Shown here one piece after another: positions 1-50,143 of a stretch of DNA of 64,000 nucleotides. Each line of letters opens with the position of its first letter. Positions within the stretch are counted from its first letter, which is position 1. The DNA lies in contig JADLDB010000065.1 in the NCBI GenBank assembly GCA_020846875.1, positions 1 to 64,000 of the forward strand, read 5' to 3'. The stretch is from Myxococcales bacterium (lineage in GTDB: Bacteria; Myxococcota; Myxococcia; Myxococcales; Myxococcaceae). The translations under genes and the position numbers were made by a program. The notes beneath the pieces are model-generated. The model saw only the letters and a program-made list of their open reading frames with translations. It did not search any database and was not told the DNA's origin.

Positions 1-496
<496 letters not shown>

Positions 497-659
497 CGGA
501 GACCACGACCTCTGGCTCGAGCTTCGGCTCTTGCTTCGAGAGGTCAGGGAAAGCTCGTCTTTCCCGTCGGTCACCAGGTCAACGGATTCGCAGGAACGCG
601 CCCGCTTCGGTGGGAAAGCGCTTGGGCTTGCTAGACGGTTTTGAGAGGGCGAACGCGCC

Positions 660-671
660 CGCTCTTTGAAC
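660..671 (+). promoter_or_regulatory. boxA-like rRNA antitermination element in the 16S-tRNA spacer
   Basis: The sequence CGCTCTTTGAAC resembles the boxA consensus (TGCTCTTTAACA) bound as RNA by NusB/S10 in rRNA antitermination. It lies in the 235-base spacer between 16S and tRNA-Ile, in which I see no other feature. A second similar motif sits before the 23S gene. The assignment rests on motif and position only. Confidence 0.5.
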
Positions 672-730
672 TGGAATGATGGAGCGTCTTCGGTCCCGAC
701 TCATGAGGACCGCTGACCATGCGAGGTTTT

Positions 731-804
731 GGGCCTGTAGCTCAGGTGGTTAGAGCGTACGCCTGATAAGCGTAAGGTCGGTGGTTCGAGTCCACCCAGG
801 CCCA
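731..804 (+). tRNA. tRNA-Ile (GAT anticodon)
   Basis: A 74-nt cloverleaf with acceptor stem GGGCCTG/CAGGCCC, a normal D arm, anticodon GAT at 765-767 in a seven-base loop, and a GGTTCGAGTCC T arm. It sits in the usual Ile-Ala order inside the rRNA operon. The 3' CCA is not encoded (CTG follows the discriminator A), so CCA must be added by tRNA nucleotidyltransferase. Confidence 0.97.
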
Positions 805-822
805 CTGCAGTCGCAGTCTTTT

Positions 823-895
823 GGGGCTGTAGCTCAGCTGGGAGAGCACCAGCTTTGCAAGCTGGGGGTCGTCGGTTCGATCCCGATCAGCTCCA
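823..895 (+). tRNA. tRNA-Ala (TGC anticodon)
   Basis: A 73-nt cloverleaf starting 19 bases after tRNA-Ile. The anticodon is TGC at 856-858. The acceptor stem GGGGCTG/CAGCTCC contains the G3-U70 wobble that is the main identity element of alanine tRNAs. As with tRNA-Ile, no 3' CCA is encoded. Confidence 0.97.
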
Positions 896-934
896 CTCTT
901 CGACTTCGTCGAGCCGTCGTGAGGCGGCCGACTC

Positions 935-946
935 GTTCTTTGAAAA
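935..946 (+). promoter_or_regulatory. second boxA-like element before 23S
   Basis: GTTCTTTGAAAA lies between tRNA-Ala and the left arm of the 23S processing stem and repeats the core of the motif at 660-671. Many bacterial rRNA operons carry a separate boxA in front of 23S. This is inferred from similarity and position. Confidence 0.45.
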
Positions 947-947
947 G

Positions 948-1000
948 CGCATACGAAGGAATACAGAATTCAATTTCGAGAGTGTAGTCTCTCGTTTCCA
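948..1000 (+). other. left arm of the 23S precursor processing stem
   Basis: This segment is almost the exact reverse complement of the segment just downstream of 23S (about 4176-4226). The block ATACGAAGGAATACAGAATT here pairs with its complement at about 4201-4221, with one base bulged, and GAGAGTGTAGTCTCTCGTTTC pairs with the GAAACGAGACACAGCTCTC region. The two arms would close a long helix around pre-23S, the normal substrate for RNase III. Confidence 0.8.
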
Positions 1001-1096
1001 ACCCGCTGCGAAGAGCAGGGGTCTGGGCCTCGATCTCGAGTTCCAACGTGTGACTTTCTGCCGTGAGGCAAAAGGTCTCCGTCAACGAGATGGAGG

Positions 1097-4070
<2,974 letters not shown>

Positions 4071-4554: not shown

Positions 4555-7629
<3,075 letters not shown>

Positions 7630-26317: not shown

Positions 26318-27184
26318 TCACACCCGCAGCGCCAGCACGTCGCACTTCGCGTGGTTGAGCAGCCACTCGGCCACGCTGCCCACGAAGAGGCGCTGCAGCC
26401 GCTTCTTCTCGTGCCGGCCCACCACCAGCAGCTCCACGTTCCGCTGGCGCACGGCCTCCAGCACCAAGAGGCGCGGATCTCCCGGCTGGGCCACGGTGAG
26501 CGCGTCGAGGCCCGTCTTCTTGAGCAGCGCGGCCAGCTCATCCTGCGCGCCCTGGAGGAAGTCCTCCCGGTAGGAGCGGGTGAGCTCGCCGGTCATCGTC
26601 ACATACTCCTCGAAGGGCACGCGGGAGGCGTGGAAGACGGTGACGTCGTTGGCCAGGGCCAGCATCGGCCGCGCCGCCTTCACCAACTCGGAAGAGGAGC
26701 GCCGGAGATCCACCGCCACCAGGGCGCGATCCCAGGGCTTGTCCGCGGGCAGTTGCGCCAGCAGCACGGGCACGTCGCCCGCGCGCACCACCTTCTGCGC
26801 GGTCGAGCCCATGAACAGATCCGCCACCGGCCGCCGGCCGTGCCGGCCCAGCACCACCACGTCCGCCTCCACCGTGTGAGCGCGCTTGATGATCTGCTGG
26901 GAGGCGTCGCCTTCCAGCACGTCGGTGGCGAGCTGCGCCGGCGACAGCCCGCGCGCCCGGGCCAGCCCCACCACCCGCGCCACCGCCTTCTCCAGGCTGC
27001 GCTCGGCTTCCTCGATGGCCAGCTTGCGCAGCTTTCCGGGGATGTCGTCGGGCAGGACGTGGATGAGGGTCAGCCTGGCCTTCGGCCCCAGCGGCAGGTG
27101 CAGGGCGCGCTCGAGCGCCTGCTGGGCTCCCGGCGAGAAGTCCGTCGGCACCACCACGCTGGACAGCGGCTTCACCCGGACCAT
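26318..27184 (-). CDS. universal stress protein with two UspA domains
   Basis: 288 aa. Two tandem UspA domains (about 5-145 and 150-288). The first has the ATP-binding type signature (VVLGRHGRRPVADLFMGSTA, then VLLA); the second has VVGRHEKKRLQRLFVGSVA and ends DVLALRV. Such proteins are made in stress and stationary phase and bind adenine nucleotides. ATG 27184 has an excellent GGGAGG seven bases upstream; the frame is open further but that part lies in the repeat and leader region. The 48-bp direct repeat 27198-27245 begins just 14 bases before this start, so it lies within the promoter region of this gene. Confidence 0.93.
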   Translation of the reverse strand: MVRVKPLSSVVVPTDFSPGAQQALERALHLPLGPKARLTLIHVLPDDIPGKLRKLAIEEAERSLEKAVARVVGLARARGLSPAQLATDVLEGDASQQIIKRAHTVEADVVVLGRHGRRPVADLFMGSTAQKVVRAGDVPVLLAQLPADKPWDRALVAVDLRRSSSELVKAARPMLALANDVTVFHASRVPFEEYVTMTGELTRSYREDFLQGAQDELAALLKKTGLDALTVAQPGDPRLLVLEAVRQRNVELLVVGRHEKKRLQRLFVGSVAEWLLNHAKCDVLALRV

Positions 27185-27197
27185 GAGTCCCTCCCTG

Positions 27198-27245
27198 GCC
27201 CCGCTTCGTAGCACCGGGACGGCCGTGGTCCGCGACGAATCCCGG
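27198..27245 (+). repeat. left copy of a 48-bp direct repeat flanking the RiPP-like cassette
   Basis: Aligns without gaps to 29103-29150 with 44 of 48 bases identical (mismatches at repeat positions 8, 12, 20 and 31). The last 17 bases, TCCGCGACGAATCCCGG, are identical in both copies. The two copies are 1905 bases apart and enclose exactly two genes. They may be a target-site duplication, an att-like duplication, or the trace of a segmental duplication. Confidence 0.9.
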
Positions 27246-27368
27246 GTCGCTCCGTCATCGACGTCTTTGCCTGCGTACGCGTTGAACCCCTGGTTCGGCG
27301 CTTCGCCAGTCACTCTGAGATTGATTGGGACTCCGCCAGCGCTGGTGCTGAAGAGCAACTCATTCACA

Positions 27369-27397
27369 TTGACTTGTTTACGTCAGGCAACTACGTT
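27369..27397 (+). promoter_or_regulatory. candidate sigma-70 promoter of the Thr-rich peptide gene
   Basis: TTGACT (27369-27374), a 17-base spacer, and TACGTT (27392-27397). The -35 box matches five of six consensus bases; the -10 box matches three. A transcript from here would have a leader of about 25-30 bases. The surrounding 27301-27420 is about half A+T by my count, far richer than the rest of the window. Confidence 0.4.
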
Positions 27398-27430
27398 CAC
27401 CGCTCATTCAGGATCGTCAGGAGGAGAGCC

Positions 27431-27790
27431 GTGGCTCGCGTCGTGACTGTGGATGAGCTGGTCGGCCGCGCGACGACCGACAGGGGGTTTGCGCAGGCGT
27501 TGTACGAATGGGCCACGGGAGTCGGCGGGCGTGTCCCAGGGGCCGAGGTGTTCGACGAGCTCCCCTCTCATCCCGGCGCGCTCGCCTTGATGCAGCCGGC
27601 GGCCCTGGCCAAGACGAAGTTTCCGACGCTGCTGACCCTTACCACGCTGACCAGCACGTTCACCGCCAGCTTGACGACGATGGTCTGCACCTTCACGACC
27701 TTCACGACGACGACCACCACGACCTCCGCGACGACGACCACCGGACCAGCGGAACCTCCGAAGGAGCCTCCCAAGGAGTCCAAGGACTGA
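27431..27790 (+). CDS. threonine-rich RiPP precursor-like peptide
   Basis: 119 aa. Residues 1-61 look like a leader: VDELVGRATTDRGFAQALYE resembles the LxxRAxxDxxFxxxL motif of NHLP/Nif11-type leader peptides. Residues 66-104 look like a core: 23 Thr and 3 Ser in 39 positions, with runs of seven and four Thr, a few Leu and Phe, and a single Cys (Cys86). A Pro-Glu-Lys tail follows (GPAEPPKEPPKESKD). Thr codons mix ACG and ACC, so this is not a simple DNA repeat. The GTG start has AGGAGG six bases upstream. The stop codon overlaps the ATG of the next gene by one base, which couples translation to the enzyme. I infer the Thr residues are phosphorylated and dehydrated by that enzyme. A secreted mucin-like Thr-rich protein is less likely since there is no signal peptide. 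Confidence 0.75.
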   Translation: MARVVTVDELVGRATTDRGFAQALYEWATGVGGRVPGAEVFDELPSHPGALALMQPAALAKTKFPTLLTLTTLTSTFTASLTTMVCTFTTFTTTTTTTSATTTTGPAEPPKEPPKESKD

Positions 27791-29124
27791 TGGGTTGGCA
27801 GGAGGAGCGCCGGCGGCTGTCTGAGGAATGGACGGCGCTGGTTGCGCAGCAACTCCCCTGCGCCCCAGAGAATTCTCCCTGGCGTTTCCGCCGCCCCCCT
27901 CAGTCCGGCGAACCGGAAGAGGGTTTCAAGCTGCACCTCTCGGCCACCGTTCGCACCGCCTCCGAGGTCTTGAGGCGGGCCGTCCGCGTCATCGACCCGG
28001 TGCAATGCAAGGCCCCTGGCACCCTCGAGCTGGTGAGCCAGCTGAATTGCGGCCTGTTCTTTGGCTACTCGCAGATTGGGAAGGTCGTCACCGTCTACCC
28101 TCGCTCGGTGGCGGAGGCGATGACGCTGGCGGAGGCGCTGCGCGAGGCGACGGCCGATGTTCCCGGCCCCGACGTACCCTTCGACAACTACTTTGGCGGG
28201 CGGGTCTTCTACCGGTGGGGCTCCTTCTCCCTTCACCTGCGGGAGGGGGACGGTGAGGTCCCGGCGATTCGAGGTCCGGACGGAAAGCCGACGCCCGACG
28301 TCAAGGCGCCAGGCAGGGCGGTGCCCCCGTTCATCGGCGATCCGTTCGCGGCCAGAGCCGCGCCGTCAACCCCTCCCTCCGCGCTGCGGCTGCTGAGGGC
28401 GTACGAGTGCTTGTCCCAACGCGGGAAAGGAGGCGTCTACCGCGCGCTGGACCTCTCGGTGGTGCCCGCCCGCGTGTGCGTCCTCAAGGAGGGCCGGCGG
28501 CACGGCGAAACGGAGTGGGACGGCACGGACGGCTTCGAGCGCCTGGAGCGGGAACGGACAGCGCTCGTGCGGCTCGAGGCGGCGGGCCTCGGCGTGCCGC
28601 GCGTTCTGGATTCCCTCGCCGTGGACGGGCGGCGCTACCTCGCGCTGGAGCACATCGCTGGACGCACTCTGGCAGAGGAAGCGGCGACGTGGGCACCCCA
28701 CGCCCGGGAAGAGGCGTCCTGTCGCGCCGGGCGCGAGCTGGCGAAGCACCTGAGCGCCATCCACGGCTGCGGGCTGGCGTGGCGCGACTTGAAACCGACC
28801 AACGTCGTGGTGTCCGAGGTCACCGGCGCGCTGGTGCCGCTTGACTTCGAAGGCGCCTGCGAACGCGACGACGCGTCGGCGCCGCCCTGGGGAACGGCGG
28901 CCTACCTGCCGCCTCGCGATCCCCCCGGCCACTGGGCCGCCCAAGACGTGTACGCGCTGGGGCTGACGGTGGCCCGCATGCTGCAACCCGAGGTGGAGCC
29001 CCCCCGGCTGCCCGAGCCGCTGGCGCCGCTGCTCGCGGCGGATCCCCTGCGGCGCCCGTCTGCCGAGGACGCCGTCGAGCTCCTGCTCACATGGAAGGAA
29101 GAGCCCCGCGTCGCAGCACCGTGA
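27790..29124 (+). CDS. class III lanthipeptide synthetase-like enzyme: lyase and kinase domains, no cyclase
   Basis: 444 aa. The N-terminal part (about 40-145) matches the phosphothreonine/serine lyase domain of LanKC enzymes: GFKLHLSAT (Lys47, His49), KVVTVYPRS (Tyr103-Arg105) and VFYRWGSFS. The kinase domain (about 200-430) has a glycine-rich loop QRGKGGVYRAL, Lys233 in VLKEG, WRDLKPTN (Asp333, Asn338, with Trp in place of the usual His) and DFEGA (Asp352) in place of DFG, a change also seen in class III enzymes. Full LanKC proteins continue with a LanC-like cyclase of about 350-400 residues; here the frame ends directly after the kinase. Predicted reaction: NTP-dependent phosphorylation of Thr/Ser, then elimination to dehydrobutyrine/dehydroalanine, with no enzymatic ring closure. 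Its last seven codons lie inside the right direct repeat. Confidence 0.82.
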   Translation: MGWQEERRRLSEEWTALVAQQLPCAPENSPWRFRRPPQSGEPEEGFKLHLSATVRTASEVLRRAVRVIDPVQCKAPGTLELVSQLNCGLFFGYSQIGKVVTVYPRSVAEAMTLAEALREATADVPGPDVPFDNYFGGRVFYRWGSFSLHLREGDGEVPAIRGPDGKPTPDVKAPGRAVPPFIGDPFAARAAPSTPPSALRLLRAYECLSQRGKGGVYRALDLSVVPARVCVLKEGRRHGETEWDGTDGFERLERERTALVRLEAAGLGVPRVLDSLAVDGRRYLALEHIAGRTLAEEAATWAPHAREEASCRAGRELAKHLSAIHGCGLAWRDLKPTNVVVSEVTGALVPLDFEGACERDDASAPPWGTAAYLPPRDPPGHWAAQDVYALGLTVARMLQPEVEPPRLPEPLAPLLAADPLRRPSAEDAVELLLTWKEEPRVAAP

Positions 29125-29150
29125 CGGCCGTGCTCCGCGACGAATCCCGG
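29103..29150 (+). repeat. right copy of the 48-bp direct repeat
   Basis: Partner of 27198-27245 (44 of 48 identical). It contains the last seven codons and the stop of the lanthipeptide synthetase-like gene, so the gene ends within the repeated sequence. Immediately downstream lies the promoter-like site of the next lipoprotein gene. Confidence 0.9.
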
Positions 29151-29154
29151 ATGG

Positions 29155-29183
29155 TTGGACTCGCTCCGGTGCGGGGGTATGGT
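29155..29183 (+). promoter_or_regulatory. candidate sigma-70 promoter of the giant lipoprotein gene
   Basis: TTGGAC (29155-29160), a 17-base spacer and TATGGT (29178-29183), about 54 bases before ATG 29237. Matches are four of six at each box. It starts five bases after the right direct repeat. Confidence 0.4.
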
Positions 29184-29236: not shown

Positions 29237-32200
29237 ATGGCAACGCATCGCGCGCTGTGGGCGCTCCTCGCGCTCCTGGCTCTCCCGGCCTGCTTCAGCT
29301 CCGTCCGCGAGCCCGACTGCCTCTTGGACGGCACCTGCGAGTGCAAGCAGAAGTCCGACTGCCCCGCCGGCAAGGACTGCGTGGACGGGAAGTGCTTCGA
29401 GATCCCCGACGCGGGGCTGCCGGGCGATCTCGGCTGGCCGTGCGCGCAGGACGACGAGTGCCTCTTCGGCCCCTGCCTGCCCAGAGGCCCCGGCAACGGC
29501 GGGGTGTGCAGCGCCCGGTGCGACGCCGACGGCGGTTTCTTCTGCGCGAAGGGCTGGGAGTGCAAGCAGGGCTTCGGCAGGGACAAGCTGGTCTGCGCGC
29601 CGCCCCTCCAGGCGCTGTGCCTCGAGTGTCAGACGGACCTCGACTGCAACGTGGCGGGCGATCGCTGCCTCACCATCTCCGGCGACACCTTCTGCGGGCG
29701 CGACTGCAGCGTCACCGGCGCCTGTCCCCAGGGCTACTCGTGCCGCTCGTTGATGGTGGACGGCGGCGTGGCGCGCCAGTGCGTGCCCGACTCCAACACC
29801 TGCCAGTGCAGCCTGGTGAGCGCGGGGTTGAGGCGCAGCTGCAAGCGCTCCAGCGGGCTGGGCACCTGCTTCGGCTTCGAGACCTGCCAGCCCAACGCCA
29901 CCTGGTCGGGCTGCGACGCGCCCAACGCCTCCCTGGAGCTCTGCAACGGCGACGACGACGACTGTGACGGGCTGGTCGATCAGGCGGATCCGGATCTCAT
30001 CACCAGCGGCCTGCCCGGCTACCCCAACTGCCGAAAGGGGCTGACCTGCACCGGGAAGTGGGGCTGCGGGCCGCTGGGCGACGGGGGCTTCGGCTTCTCC
30101 TGCAGCGCGCCGGATCCGCAGGAAGAGAAGTGCAACGGGGCGGACGACGACTGCAACGGCCTCACCGACGATGGCCTCATCGACGCCATGGGCAACTACA
30201 CCAGCGCACGCGCCTGCGGCAGCTGCGGCACCGACTGCTTCGAGGTGCTGGCGAACCTGCTGGAGGACGGCGGCGCGGTGGTGCCCGGCGCGGCCACCTG
30301 CGAGCTGCGCAACGGCCAGCGGACCTGCGTGCCCCGCCTCTGCGAGAAGGGCTACTACCCGTCGCTCACCGCGGCGCCCCAGGTGTGTGAGAGAGCCGTC
30401 ACCAGCCAGTGCCGGCCGTGCACCACCGCGGCGGACTGCGTGGTGCCTGGAGATCAATGCGTGTCGGTGGGCTTCGATCCCGGCACCTTCTGCGCCCAGG
30501 CCTGCGACGAGAGCACGGTCTACGCGGGCTGCACCGGGCGGGTGGGGGAGCGCGGCTGCTGTCCTGCGGACTCGACCTGCCAGAGCGTCAACGGGAGCAA
30601 GCTGTGCGTGCCCAACGGGAATTCCTGCCAGTGCACGCCGGCCCGCGCCGGCTTCGCGCGCAGCTGCTTCGTCACGCTGGGCGCCGCCACCTGCGTGGGT
30701 CAGCAGACCTGCAGCGCCCAGGGCACCTTCGGGGTGTGTGACACCTCGCAGACGTCGGTGGAGCTGTGCGACTCGCGCGACAACGACTGCGACGGGGTGG
30801 TGGACGACGGCTTCATCAACACCCGGGGCACCGGCACCTACGACACCGACGCGCACTGCGGCGCCTGCCAGAACGACTGCCGCGCCCGCTGGAGCCCCAC
30901 CATCCAGCACGCGATCGGCGGCTGCCTGCCCGGCATCGGCATGCCGCCGGCCTGCGCCATCGTCCAGTGCACGACAGAGACGGTCCCCGGCGGCGGCGGC
31001 TGCCGGCTGGACGGCGAGTGCACCAACGGGCGGATCTGCCACCCCACCTACCGGCAGTGCGTGAAGGCCTGCACCGGGCCGGCGGACTGCCAGGCGGGGC
31101 AGACCTGCGTGAACAACTTCTGCACCCGGAGCTGCAGCTCCGACGCCCAGTGCGTGACGGCCTTCGGCGCCCCGTCCTCCTGCACCGGCGGGACCTGCTC
31201 GGTGACGTACCAGTTCGTGAACGTCGACAACGAGGAGACCAACGGCTGCGAGTGCGCGGCGCAGAGCACCTCGGACGATCCGGATCTCTACGCGACGTAC
31301 CCGCAGCCCGGCCTGCCGTACCTGGATCGCAACTGCGACCTGGTGGACGGCGTGGCCTCCACCGCGCTGTACGTGTGGGCCCAGTCGGCCGCGAGCCAGG
31401 GCACGCGCACCTCGCCCTTCCGCACCATCTCCGAGGCGATCGCCGCGTTCCGGCCCGGCGTGCACTCCGCGATCCTGGTGGCCCAGGGCACCTACGTGGA
31501 GCAGGTGGTGATGAAGAACGGCGCGTCGATCTTCGGCGGCTACGCGCCCCTCTTCGCGCGGCGCGACGTGATCCAGTACCCGACGTTGATCGAAGCGGCG
31601 GAGCCGACCGGCAGCGTGCGCGGCACCGTCAACGCCGAAGGGCTGTCCTCCCGCACCGTGTTGGCCGGCTTCACCGTCCGCGGGTACGACGTGATCTCCC
31701 GGCCGCTGCCCGGCCAGAGCGCGAAGAACAGCTACGCGGTGTACGTGAAGAGCTCACCGCAGCTGGTGCTGCAGAACAACCACCTGGTGGGCGGGCGCGG
31801 AGGAGACGCCACCCCGGCCCTCCCGGGCATCGCGGGCGCCAACGGAGGTTCGGGCCAGAACGGCCTGCCCGCGCGCGAGTGCAACACGCCGACCTGCGTG
31901 GCGGAGACCCAGGCGGGCGGCCTGCCCGGCGCCAACACGGCGTGCGCGGCCGGGACCCGCGGCAACCCCGGGGCCGGCTCCGACTTGAACAACGAGCCGC
32001 AGGACTACCAGACCACCGCGGGCGGCAACGGGCGGGGCGGCTCCAACTCGATCTACTCCCACTCGGATCCGTCCCAGTCCGCCTTCTGCAAGTACGACTG
32101 CATCATCCAGGGCACGGGGCCGGCGGCGGGCGCGGCGCAGAACGGCGGTGACGGCGCGGCCAACCCCGCGGGGCGTGGCTGCGTGGTCGCCTCAGGGGCG

Positions 32201-32839
32201 ATCGTGGGGGATGACTGGGTGAGCGCTCTCGGCACCGCGGGATCCTCGGGCAGCCCGGGGCGCGGGGGCGGGGGCGGCGGTGCGGGCGGCTGCGTGCGCA
32301 ACGACAACCCCACCACCTGCACGGTGGGCCGGCGGGTGGGCGATCTGGGCGGCACCGGCGGCGGCGGCGGCGCGGGCGGCTGCGGCGGTGGACTGGGCAA
32401 CGGCGCGGCGGGGGGCGGCGGCAGCTTCGCCGTCTTCATCATCGGCCCGGCGCCCGGCATCGACGGCAACCTGATCGACCTGGGCTTCGGCGGCAACGGA
32501 GGCAGCGGCGGCGCCGGTGGCTACGGCGGGCTGGGCGGACCGGGCGGGCGCGGCGGACCCAACAACGCGGTGGCGTGGTGCGCGGGCCAGGGCGGGCCGG
32601 GCGGGCGGGGCGGCAACGGCGGCGCGGGCAGCGGCGGCGGGGGCGGGTGCGGAGGCAGCGTCTTCGGCGTGGGGGGGCAGAACATCCTCGCGGCGGGGTA
32701 CTCGGCGCGGAACACCTTCGCGCCTTCCCCGATGAACGCGCAGGGCCAGGGCGGCGTGGGTGGCGCGTCGCCGGCCGGCAACGCCTTCCGCGGCGGAGAC
32801 GGCGTGGCCGGGGTCGTCAACCAGGTGCTGTCCTTCTAG
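29237..32839 (+). CDS. giant Cys-rich and Gly-rich surface lipoprotein (MopE-like modules)
   Basis: 1200 aa. Signal peptide with lipobox LLALPAC (Cys19). Residues 20-700 are Cys-rich, with recurring CxxxxDCxxGxxC units and three acidic NGDDDDCDGLVDQ-type motifs (near 236, 299 and 512) that resemble the putative metal-binding repeats of MopE-like proteins. A segment at about 720-850 (SPFRTISEAIAAFRPG, GTYVEQVVMKNGASIFGGY) looks like a right-handed beta-helix. Residues about 855-1150 are mostly Gly with Ala, Asn and Ser. The same layout recurs in the next gene and at 55984-58638. Probably an outer-surface protein. ATG 29237 has no clear Shine-Dalgarno sequence. The following paralogue starts 10 bases after its stop. 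Confidence 0.85.
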   Translation: MATHRALWALLALLALPACFSSVREPDCLLDGTCECKQKSDCPAGKDCVDGKCFEIPDAGLPGDLGWPCAQDDECLFGPCLPRGPGNGGVCSARCDADGGFFCAKGWECKQGFGRDKLVCAPPLQALCLECQTDLDCNVAGDRCLTISGDTFCGRDCSVTGACPQGYSCRSLMVDGGVARQCVPDSNTCQCSLVSAGLRRSCKRSSGLGTCFGFETCQPNATWSGCDAPNASLELCNGDDDDCDGLVDQADPDLITSGLPGYPNCRKGLTCTGKWGCGPLGDGGFGFSCSAPDPQEEKCNGADDDCNGLTDDGLIDAMGNYTSARACGSCGTDCFEVLANLLEDGGAVVPGAATCELRNGQRTCVPRLCEKGYYPSLTAAPQVCERAVTSQCRPCTTAADCVVPGDQCVSVGFDPGTFCAQACDESTVYAGCTGRVGERGCCPADSTCQSVNGSKLCVPNGNSCQCTPARAGFARSCFVTLGAATCVGQQTCSAQGTFGVCDTSQTSVELCDSRDNDCDGVVDDGFINTRGTGTYDTDAHCGACQNDCRARWSPTIQHAIGGCLPGIGMPPACAIVQCTTETVPGGGGCRLDGECTNGRICHPTYRQCVKACTGPADCQAGQTCVNNFCTRSCSSDAQCVTAFGAPSSCTGGTCSVTYQFVNVDNEETNGCECAAQSTSDDPDLYATYPQPGLPYLDRNCDLVDGVASTALYVWAQSAASQGTRTSPFRTISEAIAAFRPGVHSAILVAQGTYVEQVVMKNGASIFGGYAPLFARRDVIQYPTLIEAAEPTGSVRGTVNAEGLSSRTVLAGFTVRGYDVISRPLPGQSAKNSYAVYVKSSPQLVLQNNHLVGGRGGDATPALPGIAGANGGSGQNGLPARECNTPTCVAETQAGGLPGANTACAAGTRGNPGAGSDLNNEPQDYQTTAGGNGRGGSNSIYSHSDPSQSAFCKYDCIIQGTGPAAGAAQNGGDGAANPAGRGCVVASGAIVGDDWVSALGTAGSSGSPGRGGGGGGAGGCVRNDNPTTCTVGRRVGDLGGTGGGGGAGGCGGGLGNGAAGGGGSFAVFIIGPAPGIDGNLIDLGFGGNGGSGGAGGYGGLGGPGGRGGPNNAVAWCAGQGGPGGRGGNGGAGSGGGGGCGGSVFGVGGQNILAAGYSARNTFAPSPMNAQGQGGVGGASPAGNAFRGGDGVAGVVNQVLSF

Positions 32840-47391: not shown

Positions 47392-48837
47392 GTGCGTCTC
47401 GTCACGACCCTGGCGGTGATGTCGGTGGTCGTCTGGCTCACCCAATCATTCTCGGCGCTGACGGCCCCGCCCACCGGAGGCCACGCGTGGCGGGAGACGG
47501 ACGGCCTCATCGTCGCGCGGAACTACTGCGAAGAAGGCGCGCCCTTCACGCGGCCGCGGGTGAGCAACCGGGCGGACTCGGACGGGGTGACGGGGCTGGA
47601 GTTCCCCGTCCTCAACTGGATCTCCGGCGCGGTGGGGTGCCGCACGGGGGACTTCGCGACGCCGTGGCGAGTCCTCTCGCTGCTCTTCACGCTCTCGGGC
47701 GCGGCGGCGGTGTTCCTGTTCGCGAGGAGGCGGTGGGGGCAACTGGCGGCGGCGATGTGCCTGCTGGTCTTCGCCACGTCGCCGCTGGTGCCGTACTTCG
47801 GGCGGAGCACGCAGCCGGACGCGGTGGCGATGGGGCTGGCGGGGCTGGCGTTGCTTATCCCCTCGTCCCCATCGGGGGAGCGGCGAAGGGTCACAGCTGT
47901 CCTCGCGCCGCTGCTGGTCTCTTGTGCTGCGCTGATCAAGCTCCCGGCGATCGTCTACCTGTTGCCCGTCTTCGTCCTCGGGTGGAGCGCCGCCCGGAGC
48001 CGCGCGCTCTTGCTCCTCACCACCGCGCTGTCCCTGTTGCCGCCGTTCCTCTGGTACCGGTACGCGCGGGCCCTGGAACTCACGAACGGGCTGACGAACT
48101 TCGGGGTGACGCGCTCCCCGTCGCAGCTCCTGCGCGAGTGGTTGATGCCGGAGTTCTGGAGGCTGGACTTCACGCAGCACCCCTTCGACGTGTGGGTGTT
48201 CCCGCTGGTGACGGTGGTGGTGCTGCTGGTGGCCGTCGCGCGGGTGCGCGCGCGCTCGATCTCCCGGCTGATGGTGCTCTTTGGGGCGACGGCGCTGGCG
48301 TACCTCTTCCTCTGTGGGTACTCCGGAGCGCACCACGACTACTACGGGCTGATCCTCGCGCCGCTGTTCGCGCTGGGCGGCGGTCGGGCGCTGGCGGTCG
48401 CGGTGGAGTGGCTCGGGAATCACCGAGGGAAGCTGGTGCCCGCGGCGGTGGTGACGTTCGCGCTGGCGGCGATGGGGTACCAGGTCTTCCGAGGGTGGCA
48501 CTGGTGGCCGCGGCACCGGGCCCAGTGGGCGGCGTTACAGGCCTTCAGCGAGAAGACGCTGGGGCCACCGGGGCCGAACCGGGTGATGGTCTTCTCCGGC
48601 GGCTCGCCGCAGCTCTTCTGGTTTTCGCACCAGCACGGCGGCTTCGGGTTGCTCGAGGCGCCGGCAGTCCCCGCCGGCCGCTATGGCCTCGTCGATCGAC
48701 TCCGCCTCAAGGCGGACGCGGCACGCATCGAGGCGGCGCTGAAAGCCTCCGGCTGCCAGCCGCTCTTCGAGAACGACGTCGTCTTCGTCTGCGGAATGGG
48801 CCCACCAGGATTCGAACCTGGAACCAAGCGGTTATGA
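47392..48837 (+). CDS. polytopic membrane glycosyltransferase, PMT/GT39-like
   Basis: 481 aa from GTG 47392, about ten membrane helices. The first outer loop holds GHAWRETDGLIVARNYCEEG then GLEFPVLNWISG, the motif of dolichyl-phosphate-mannose/ArnT-type glycosyltransferases, where the acidic residue of the RETD is catalytic. Such enzymes move sugars from lipid-phosphate donors to proteins or lipids on the outer face of the inner membrane. The start is uncertain since the frame is open to 47041. The 3' end is unusual: the last 13 codons (MGPPGFEPGTKRL) and the stop are antisense to the tRNA gene at 48797-48868, so the coding region borrows its end from tRNA sequence. Confidence 0.8.
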   Translation: MRLVTTLAVMSVVVWLTQSFSALTAPPTGGHAWRETDGLIVARNYCEEGAPFTRPRVSNRADSDGVTGLEFPVLNWISGAVGCRTGDFATPWRVLSLLFTLSGAAAVFLFARRRWGQLAAAMCLLVFATSPLVPYFGRSTQPDAVAMGLAGLALLIPSSPSGERRRVTAVLAPLLVSCAALIKLPAIVYLLPVFVLGWSAARSRALLLLTTALSLLPPFLWYRYARALELTNGLTNFGVTRSPSQLLREWLMPEFWRLDFTQHPFDVWVFPLVTVVVLLVAVARVRARSISRLMVLFGATALAYLFLCGYSGAHHDYYGLILAPLFALGGGRALAVAVEWLGNHRGKLVPAAVVTFALAAMGYQVFRGWHWWPRHRAQWAALQAFSEKTLGPPGPNRVMVFSGGSPQLFWFSHQHGGFGLLEAPAVPAGRYGLVDRLRLKADAARIEAALKASGCQPLFENDVVFVCGMGPPGFEPGTKRL

Positions 48838-48868
48838 GCCGCCAGCTCTACCGTTGAGCTATGAGCCC
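48797..48868 (-). tRNA. tRNA with CAT anticodon (elongator Met or Ile2)
   Basis: On the minus strand, a 72-nt cloverleaf with acceptor GGGCTCA/TGGGCCC, anticodon loop CTCATAA and T arm CCAGGTTCGAATCCTGG. It lacks the three G-C pairs of initiator tRNA in the anticodon stem, so it reads as elongator Met, or as Ile2 if the anticodon C is modified to lysidine; sequence alone does not settle this. No CCA is encoded. The 3' end overlaps the coding region of the glycosyltransferase gene on the opposite strand by 41 bases. Confidence 0.93.
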
Positions 48869-48915: not shown

Positions 48916-49537
48916 GTGTCCGTGAAAGCTCGCAAGAAGCGCTCCACCTACCACCACGGCGACCTGCGCAACGCGCTCGTCCGCGCCGCGCTCGACTCCA
49001 TCTCCACCGGCAGCCCCGAGCAGATCACCCTGCGCGAAGTCTCCCGCCGCGTAGGCGTCAACCACCGCGCCGTCTACCGCCACTTCGAGGATCTCACCGC
49101 GCTCCTCGCCGCCGTCGCCGAGGAGGGCTACCGCATGCTGCTGGCCACCCTCGAGGAGACGCTCGCGCCCCATGAAGCGCGCCACCCCCGACAAGCGGCT
49201 CGAGGCGCTGGCCGTCGCCTACCTCTGCTTCGCCGTCGATCACCCCGCGCACTACCGCATCATGTTCGGCCGCCGCCTCAACGAGGACGGCCGCTTCGAC
49301 GTGCTGGAGGAGCTCGTCGAGCGCGCCTACGGCCTCCTCGCCGGGGAGCTCCGCTCCGGCCAGGCCGCCGGCCGCTTCGCCGACTTCCCTGCCCGCGAGG
49401 CCGTCTTCGCCTTCTGGTCGCTGACCCACGGCTTCGCCAGCCTCGCCCTCGTCCGCCGCATCCAGGTGAGGCGCGCCCTCCTCGAGGACTACACCCGCCA
49501 GCTCCTCGCCCCGCTTCTCGCGGGGTTGCGCAAGTAG
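48916..49537 (+). pseudogene. tetR-family regulator with a one-base frameshift
   Basis: Two frames give one TetR protein. The first (from GTG 48916) has the N-terminal DNA-binding domain: HHGDLRNALVRAALDSIS, ITLREVSRRVGVNHRAVYRHF, then LLATLEETLAP. At the CCCC run 49168-49171 the sense continues in the next frame from ATG 49172: MKRATPDKRLEALAVAYLCF to LLAGLRK. One C fewer in this run would restore a single protein of about 206 aa. The first frame runs on without stop to 49902, so the normal product would be lost. This may be a real recent mutation, a homopolymer sequencing error, or a phase-variable tract. The C-terminal part, with the HYRIMFG motif, belongs to the WHG-type ligand-binding domain. 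Probable target: a nearby gene or itself. Confidence 0.85.
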
Positions 49538-49662
49538 TCCCTGCCCGGCGCACTTCGTCCCGAGGTGTGCGAGTCCCACGGCGCTGGGTGAGATTGGAGG
49601 CGCCGCGGTGGCGCAGCGGGACGGCCGCTACGGGGCCCGCTCGAAGGAGCCCGAGCTGCGGC

Positions 49663-49842
49663 TCATCGCGAGCGCCCGCTCTTCGCGTCCACCCGCCGCT
49701 CGGTGACGGTGATGCCCTCCGGCAGCCTCGGAGCAGGAAGGGGAAGCCAGCGCATCAGCCGCACGAGCCACGCTCTGCCCACGCCTCGCGGAAGCCAGCG
49801 CGCCGCCCGGCGGAGATCCGGATGAAAGGGGCTCGGATCCAC
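49663..49842 (-). pseudogene. truncated alpha/beta-hydrolase (esterase) 5' remnant
   Basis: 59 codons from GTG 49842 to TGA 49663. The start is convincing, with GGGAGG eight bases upstream and placement 16 bases after the stop of the alkyltransferase-like gene. The product, VDPSPFHPDLRRAARWLPRG and following to RLPEGITVTERRVDAKSGRSR, matches the N-terminal cap of alpha/beta-hydrolase esterases, which normally continue another 250 or more residues. No continuation with the GxSxG motif is found in the next 120 bases. The downstream part was probably lost by deletion, ending near the frameshifted tetR gene. Recognition is by eye and tentative. Confidence 0.5.
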
Positions 49843-49858
49843 AGGTGCGCCCTCCCGG

Positions 49859-50143
49859 CTACGGGGCGCCGCGTCGCTGGATGCGCCGGCCCACCAGGCT
49901 GACGCCCTCGCGCCGCAGCTTCGGCGCCTGCCGAAGCAACATCTCCTTCGCCACCGTGCCGTCGCTCCGCACCACCCGCCACCACGGCACGTCGTCCAGC
50001 TCCCGCAGCGCCCGCACCACCGCCCGCGACGAGCCGGGCTTGCCCGCCATCAGCGCCACCTGCGCGTAGCTGGCCGTCCCGCCTCGGGGGATCGCCTTCA
50101 CCGCCGCCGCCACGCGCTGCTGCCACTCGCTCCGCCTGGCCAT
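49859..50143 (-). CDS. alkyltransferase-like (ATL) DNA-binding protein
   Basis: 94 aa, the size of the C-terminal DNA-binding domain of O6-alkylguanine-DNA alkyltransferases. The helix GTASYAQVALMAGKPGSSRAV is followed by PWWRVVRSDG. Active alkyltransferases have PCHRV here, with Cys as alkyl acceptor; the Trp means this protein cannot transfer the alkyl group. ATL proteins bind O6-alkylguanine and hand the lesion to nucleotide excision repair. The start at ATG 50143 fits the family length. It is divergent from the lipoprotein gene at 50232 and is followed by the hydrolase remnant. Confidence 0.88.
   Translation of the reverse strand: MARRSEWQQRVAAAVKAIPRGGTASYAQVALMAGKPGSSRAVVRALRELDDVPWWRVVRSDGTVAKEMLLRQAPKLRREGVSLVGRRIQRRGAP

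Follow-up and report, generated by a model that had tools for sequence, protein, structure and literature searches.

We conclude that a foreign two-gene unit probably entered the intergenic region between two divergent genes of this Myxococcaceae genome in a single insertion that duplicated the target, and that it most likely did so through the repair or recombination of the cell itself. The analysed stretch of DNA, referred to here as the window, is 64,000 nt long. On the left of the insertion lies a universal stress protein gene, usp (minus strand, 26318-27184, with its ATG at 27184; PF00582, E = 1.5e-43), divergent from a gene for a Cys-rich lipoprotein-like protein on the right (plus strand, 29237-32839). 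Direct repeats lie between these neighbours and, as the preliminary description had it, they enclose a peptide gene and an enzyme gene, the only two plausible genes between them. The peptide gene (plus strand, 27431-27790) encodes a precursor with an NHLP-like leader and a Thr-rich core. The enzyme gene (plus strand, 27790-29124), whose start overlaps the peptide stop (TGATG), encodes a RamC_N phospho-Ser/Thr lyase joined to a Ser/Thr kinase, with no LanC. Upstream of the peptide gene is a G+C-poor region (0.55; plus strand, 27246-27430) with an AGGAGG ribosome site and a weak promoter-like sequence, recognised by eye only (TTGACT-N17-TACGTT, 27369-27397); a scan of the region for consensus promoters and terminators found no site.

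A repeat search of the window recovered exactly the 48-bp direct repeats described earlier, at 27198-27245 and 29103-29150, spaced 1905 bp apart and identical at 44 of 48 positions (92%). In a seeded scan across all offsets this was the one non-tandem pair of the 64 kb to reach 44/48, and a 35-nt degenerate pattern derived from the repeat had two real matches, against zero expected in shuffles. Just these two copies of the 48-mer are present in the genome; a search of 194 other Myxococcota genomes turned up no copy. The scan, the shuffles and the two genome searches rule out a chance repeat; the lack of a third copy in the genome itself or in the 194 others rules out a dispersed element, which had been raised as a possible identity of the sequence. 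Gapped alignment showed that homology resumes for eight more bases (TCGCTCCG) past a 9-nt indel, which would extend the copies, both read on the plus strand, to 27198-27254 on the left and 29103-29168 on the right. This extension is based on a short match, although just 25 of 20,000 shuffles produced an 8-mer match there. The left copy, with a 9-nt deletion between its 48-bp core and TCGCTCCG, is judged to be the native one. The right copy overlaps the end of the enzyme gene, as reported; the overlap, previously given as the last seven codons, is six sense codons (PRVAAP) and the stop, and the TGA depends on one of the four mismatches, the right copy reading CCGTGA where the left has CCGGGA. 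The repeat did not fold better than shuffled sequences. Near-tandem repeats of a GAGCCGAAGCCGGAGCCGAAG motif, with spacings of 45 and 57 bp, occur elsewhere in the window, at 7195-7344.

Comparison of the usp-lipoprotein junction among related genomes, the check put forward in the preliminary description, showed it to be closed and free of the cassette in 13 relatives from three genera (G016, G031, G064, G065, G066, G004, G025, G035, G116, G117, G118, G119 and G001). In these closed sites the two genes are 88-206 bp apart, compared with 2052 bp here; removing 1905 bp from the present locus leaves an intergenic region of 147 bp. All of the closed-site relatives belong to other genera, and a near-identical single-copy version of the 48-mer site was seen in none of them. 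The lipoprotein gene has orthologues in 17 other genomes of the family, and usp adjoins it in 13 of the 17. The remaining four (G013, locus L112; G005, L116; G009, L117; G010, L118) are uninformative on the empty site, since usp is absent within 1.4 kb upstream of the lipoprotein gene. The left side of the lipoprotein junction thus varies across the family. No other genome examined carries the cassette at this junction.

The empty sites also bear on the ancestry of the repeat. The sequence TTCGTAGCAC, at 27205-27214 in the left copy, is shared with the empty sites of G016, G031, G064 and G065, and with that of G066 at one mismatch; in all five of these genomes, which make up genus g17 in our set, it lies near the usp start, as it does in the left copy. 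Aligned to the five g17 empty sites, the left copy scored 101, compared with 75 for the best of 40 control 57-mers from the cassette, and the shuffle p was 0.0005-0.001. The right copy reads GTCGCAGCAC and gave no stand-out score, with a marginal p of about 0.06 against the empty sites of genus g5. No significant match was found in the empty sites for the repeat outside the TTCGTAGCAC stretch. Ancestral status is therefore statistically shown for the TTCGTAGCAC part of the repeat, and the position of the remainder suggests the same for it. On the other side of the cassette, the native right flank contains the apparent promoter of the lipoprotein gene, read by eye (TTGGAC-N17-TATGGT, plus strand, 29155-29183), and this sequence, with the same 17-nt spacing, is kept in the g5 empty sites of G035, G025, G117 and G119. 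The nine bases absent from the left copy carry TTGGA, most of the -35 element of this promoter. Since the sites are closed in relatives, TTCGTAGCAC is ancestral and the promoter-like site of the right flank is conserved, an insertion that duplicated its target is the most likely explanation. The 13 closed sites and the non-dispersed 48-mer thus fit one of the two origins proposed in the preliminary description; the other, segmental duplication, does not fit, because a second copy exists in the genome for the repeat only and not for the cassette.

The cassette itself looks foreign, judging from codon usage and enzyme phylogeny. GC3 is 0.85 in both cassette genes (0.81-0.85 for the enzyme gene), whereas nearly all other genes predicted in the window have 0.91-0.97; the codon fit of the enzyme gene is -1.06 to -1.14, compared with -0.52 to -0.97 for other predicted genes. 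The codon fit of the cassette is the worst among plausible window genes; one open reading frame, at 49094-49579, is worse and is probably not a gene. In the same part of the window, a frame at 48916-49902 begins like a TetR-type regulator (STYHHGDLRNALVRAAL) and seems to continue in another frame (49172-49537), with a tRNA-Met nearby at 48797-48868. The enzyme is closest to a protein encoded on a plasmid of the alphaproteobacterium Salipiger sp. CCB-MM3 (42% identical), with which it forms a clade supported at 100/99 in a tree of 29 sequences that is thinly sampled and in which the window enzyme has a long branch. Homologues from Myxococcaceae are only 27-39% identical, and most of them, LanKC-like proteins with fused or separate cyclases, fall apart from this clade. 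A scan of genome contigs with the enzyme gave just a 30% match to the kinase domain, and all matches in the genome that held it lay in the kinase region. No relatives of the enzyme were found in viral contigs, and the single phage match was weak and covered the kinase only. A role in defence was set aside, since anti-phage kinase models match the kinase domain alone.

We propose that a two-gene unit of foreign origin, about 1.85 kb long, entered a control region of approximately 147 bp common to the divergent usp and lipoprotein genes. Insertion would have duplicated 48-66 bp of this region, leaving the upstream sequence of both neighbours in place. Afterwards the copies would have decayed at different positions, the left keeping the usp-side part and the right the lipoprotein-side part, each losing what was no longer needed. 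As the route, we infer homology-facilitated illegitimate integration, template switching or joining to a staggered break rather than the action of a site-specific recombinase. The first of these routes is an established way for foreign DNA to integrate (see the discussion in PMC2884548). The present case resembles it in that foreign DNA would have integrated without mobile-element genes, and differs in that a long target duplication is not a defining outcome of that process. Ku is encoded in the genome, so end joining could have taken place, although the presence of Ku does not demonstrate it. The duplication is far longer than the usual target duplications of transposons and is diagnostic of no single repair route.

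Mobile-element routes fit the locus poorly. Nothing between the repeats resembles an integrase or a transposase, as already remarked from the sequence, and no inverted repeat at the cassette ends was among the repeat pairs found. A DNA transposon or insertion sequence was rejected, given a duplication of at least 48 bp with neither a transposase nor terminal inverted repeats. The repeats could instead be attL and attR of a small cis-mobilisable element, moved by a recombinase of the tyrosine or serine type acting in trans; we consider this unlikely. A compact foreign unit between 48-bp direct repeats is what such an element should look like, and the genome has eight matches to the tyrosine integrase family PF00589, but all are elsewhere: a search limited to PF00589 found none on the 121-kb contig (C65), and there is no tRNA at the insertion site. 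The same two observations speak against an integrase-dependent genomic island. Further points against an att site are that the sequence has no third copy in this genome or the 194 others, that the Salipiger relative has no flanking repeats, and that the left copy resembles ordinary intergenic DNA conserved in empty sites. Contig C177 of G000 holds four tyrosine-integrase-like matches within about 3.1 kb (201-3269). We favour host-mediated capture with a duplicated target, ranking it well above att-site integration and taking the repair routes together.

Homologous recombination could also have delivered the cassette, either from a donor whose usp-lipoprotein junction already carried the cassette and the duplication, or as a circle that bore one copy of the 48-mer and integrated through a single crossover. 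Flanking homology would explain the clean edges, and one crossover of a circle carrying the 48 bp would yield the same structure; yet no examined genome has the cassette at this junction, and the donor version merely shifts the original insertion to another genome, and we regard this history as slightly less likely still than an att site. Direct repeats also permit precise loss, such that an ancestral cassette might have been deleted in other lineages by recombination between them. This seems very improbable given its absence from all 13 relatives of three genera, the atypical codon usage and the closest kin on an alphaproteobacterial plasmid, which indicate import. Least credible of all is that the repeats are no insertion scar but a shared regulatory element selected twice: each copy does have a gene start or a promoter-like site just downstream of it, but the genome has no further copies of the 48-mer and the right copy is partly coding.

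The enzyme encoded by the cassette has the two catalytic domains expected of a lyase-kinase. The lyase domain matched PF25816 (E = 2.2e-28; 99.5 bits, cut-off 27) and the kinase domain PF00069 (E = 1.6e-9), with the kinase motifs VCVLKE (containing the Lys), WRDLKPTN and DFEG all kept. Eight residues have been reported to be conserved in the lyase of ThurKC (PMC10604976). Six of the eight are identical here: K47, H49, K74, K98, D132 and R142, corresponding to K65, H67, K94, K117, D152 and R163 of ThurKC. At the other two positions R191 is replaced by Lys and K108 by Gly; the Salipiger enzyme and the solved relative 8car lack Lys108 too. The protein ends after the kinase with no LanC-like cyclase (PF05147), and no PF05147 match was found anywhere in the genome, which is 100% complete. 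Consistent with this, the match of the enzyme to the class IV LanL model NF038150 is confined to its first half (positions 6-391 of 851), with 240.8 bits against a cut-off of 650. Relative to the Salipiger enzyme, it is about 40 residues shorter at the C-terminus and is missing a 26-residue segment of the kinase C-lobe; it now terminates within duplicated host DNA, about 40 residues before the end of its nearest relative. Because these parts are missing, it is possible that the enzyme is reduced in activity or starting to decay.

The last 59 residues of the precursor include 24 Thr, 4 Ser and 1 Cys. Its leader matched the Os1348/NHLP-type model NF038399 with E = 0.009, compared with 0.024 for the Salipiger precursor, both under the 40-bit cut-off; the two leaders align with each other (shuffle p = 0.008), and the Salipiger precursor ends in seven Thr followed by SA (TTTTTTTSA). 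We suggest that the kinase phosphorylates Thr and Ser of the precursor and that the RamC_N domain eliminates the phosphate, giving dehydrobutyrine and dehydroalanine. Ring formation would not be enzymatic. With no LanC and a single Cys in the core, the product would stay mainly linear; it is predicted to be a dehydrobutyrine-rich peptide.

Class III and IV lanthipeptide synthetases (LanKC and LanL; for example ThurKC, PMC10604976) share with the window enzyme a RamC_N-type lyase followed by a Ser/Thr kinase, a DFE-type kinase motif and an adjoining small precursor gene, but the window enzyme has no C-terminal LanC-like cyclase, and its precursor is NHLP-like and Thr-rich. The closest parallel is the Salipiger sp. 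CCB-MM3 cassette (WP_193789577.1, plasmid NZ_CP014600.1), in which a precursor with an NHLP-like leader lies upstream of a two-domain, cyclase-less enzyme. That enzyme differs in being about 40 residues longer at its C-terminus and in having the 26-residue C-lobe segment; its cassette differs in having a methyltransferase gene downstream, and no direct repeats were found flanking it. The methyltransferase (class I, SAM-dependent; L076:8735-9565) is encoded after the other two genes of the cassette and could act on the same peptide. A locus on Planococcus lenghuensis plasmid NZ_CP019641.1 is similar in having RamC_N and kinase pieces with the same GKGGVY and KEGR-x2-GET motifs, no cyclase annotated nearby, and an NHLP-like small gene upstream; in contrast to the window, the small gene is not Thr-rich and ABC transporter genes lie downstream. 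The cyclase-less RamC_N-kinase gene of this plasmid (L077:5001-7307) is split by an IS630 transposase gene. In class V lanthipeptides (PMC9486802), as proposed here, dehydration takes place without a class I-IV lanthionine synthase; the window differs in encoding a fused RamC_N-kinase. In several genomes of the family (L062, L063, L064, L066, L067 and L068), the lyase-kinase frame is only 516-545 codons long, and short upstream frames of the MKKILDLQKL type resemble class III precursors. At L063 the cyclase appears to be a separate gene, because a LanC-like frame follows the lyase-kinase frame.

As an event the insertion is nothing out of the ordinary except for the unusual length of its duplication; novelty lies more in the cyclase-less cassette, which could be new. 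In the open literature that we searched, no LanKC or LanL that lacks the cyclase and is paired with a Thr-rich precursor is described, although this does not prove novelty. We tentatively raise the possibility, which we hold at somewhat less than even chances, that the cassette represents an unrecognised type of RiPP system, in which two genes, for a Thr-rich precursor with an NHLP leader and a cyclase-less lyase-kinase, yield a linear poly-dehydrobutyrine, and which is plasmid-borne and captured by chromosomes without site-specific recombinases. If this is true, genome mining that relies on LanC would miss such RiPP units. The cassette itself points to a cyclase-less branch of class III/IV lanthipeptide enzymes, which would go unclassified in lanthipeptide surveys keyed to LanC, such as PMC7268733. 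The product, if it is poly-dehydrobutyrine, would be chemically unusual. The locus offers a clear, checkable case of a small peptide-modification system reaching the chromosome without mobile-element genes, with the scar still readable and the control regions of both neighbours apparently preserved after insertion.
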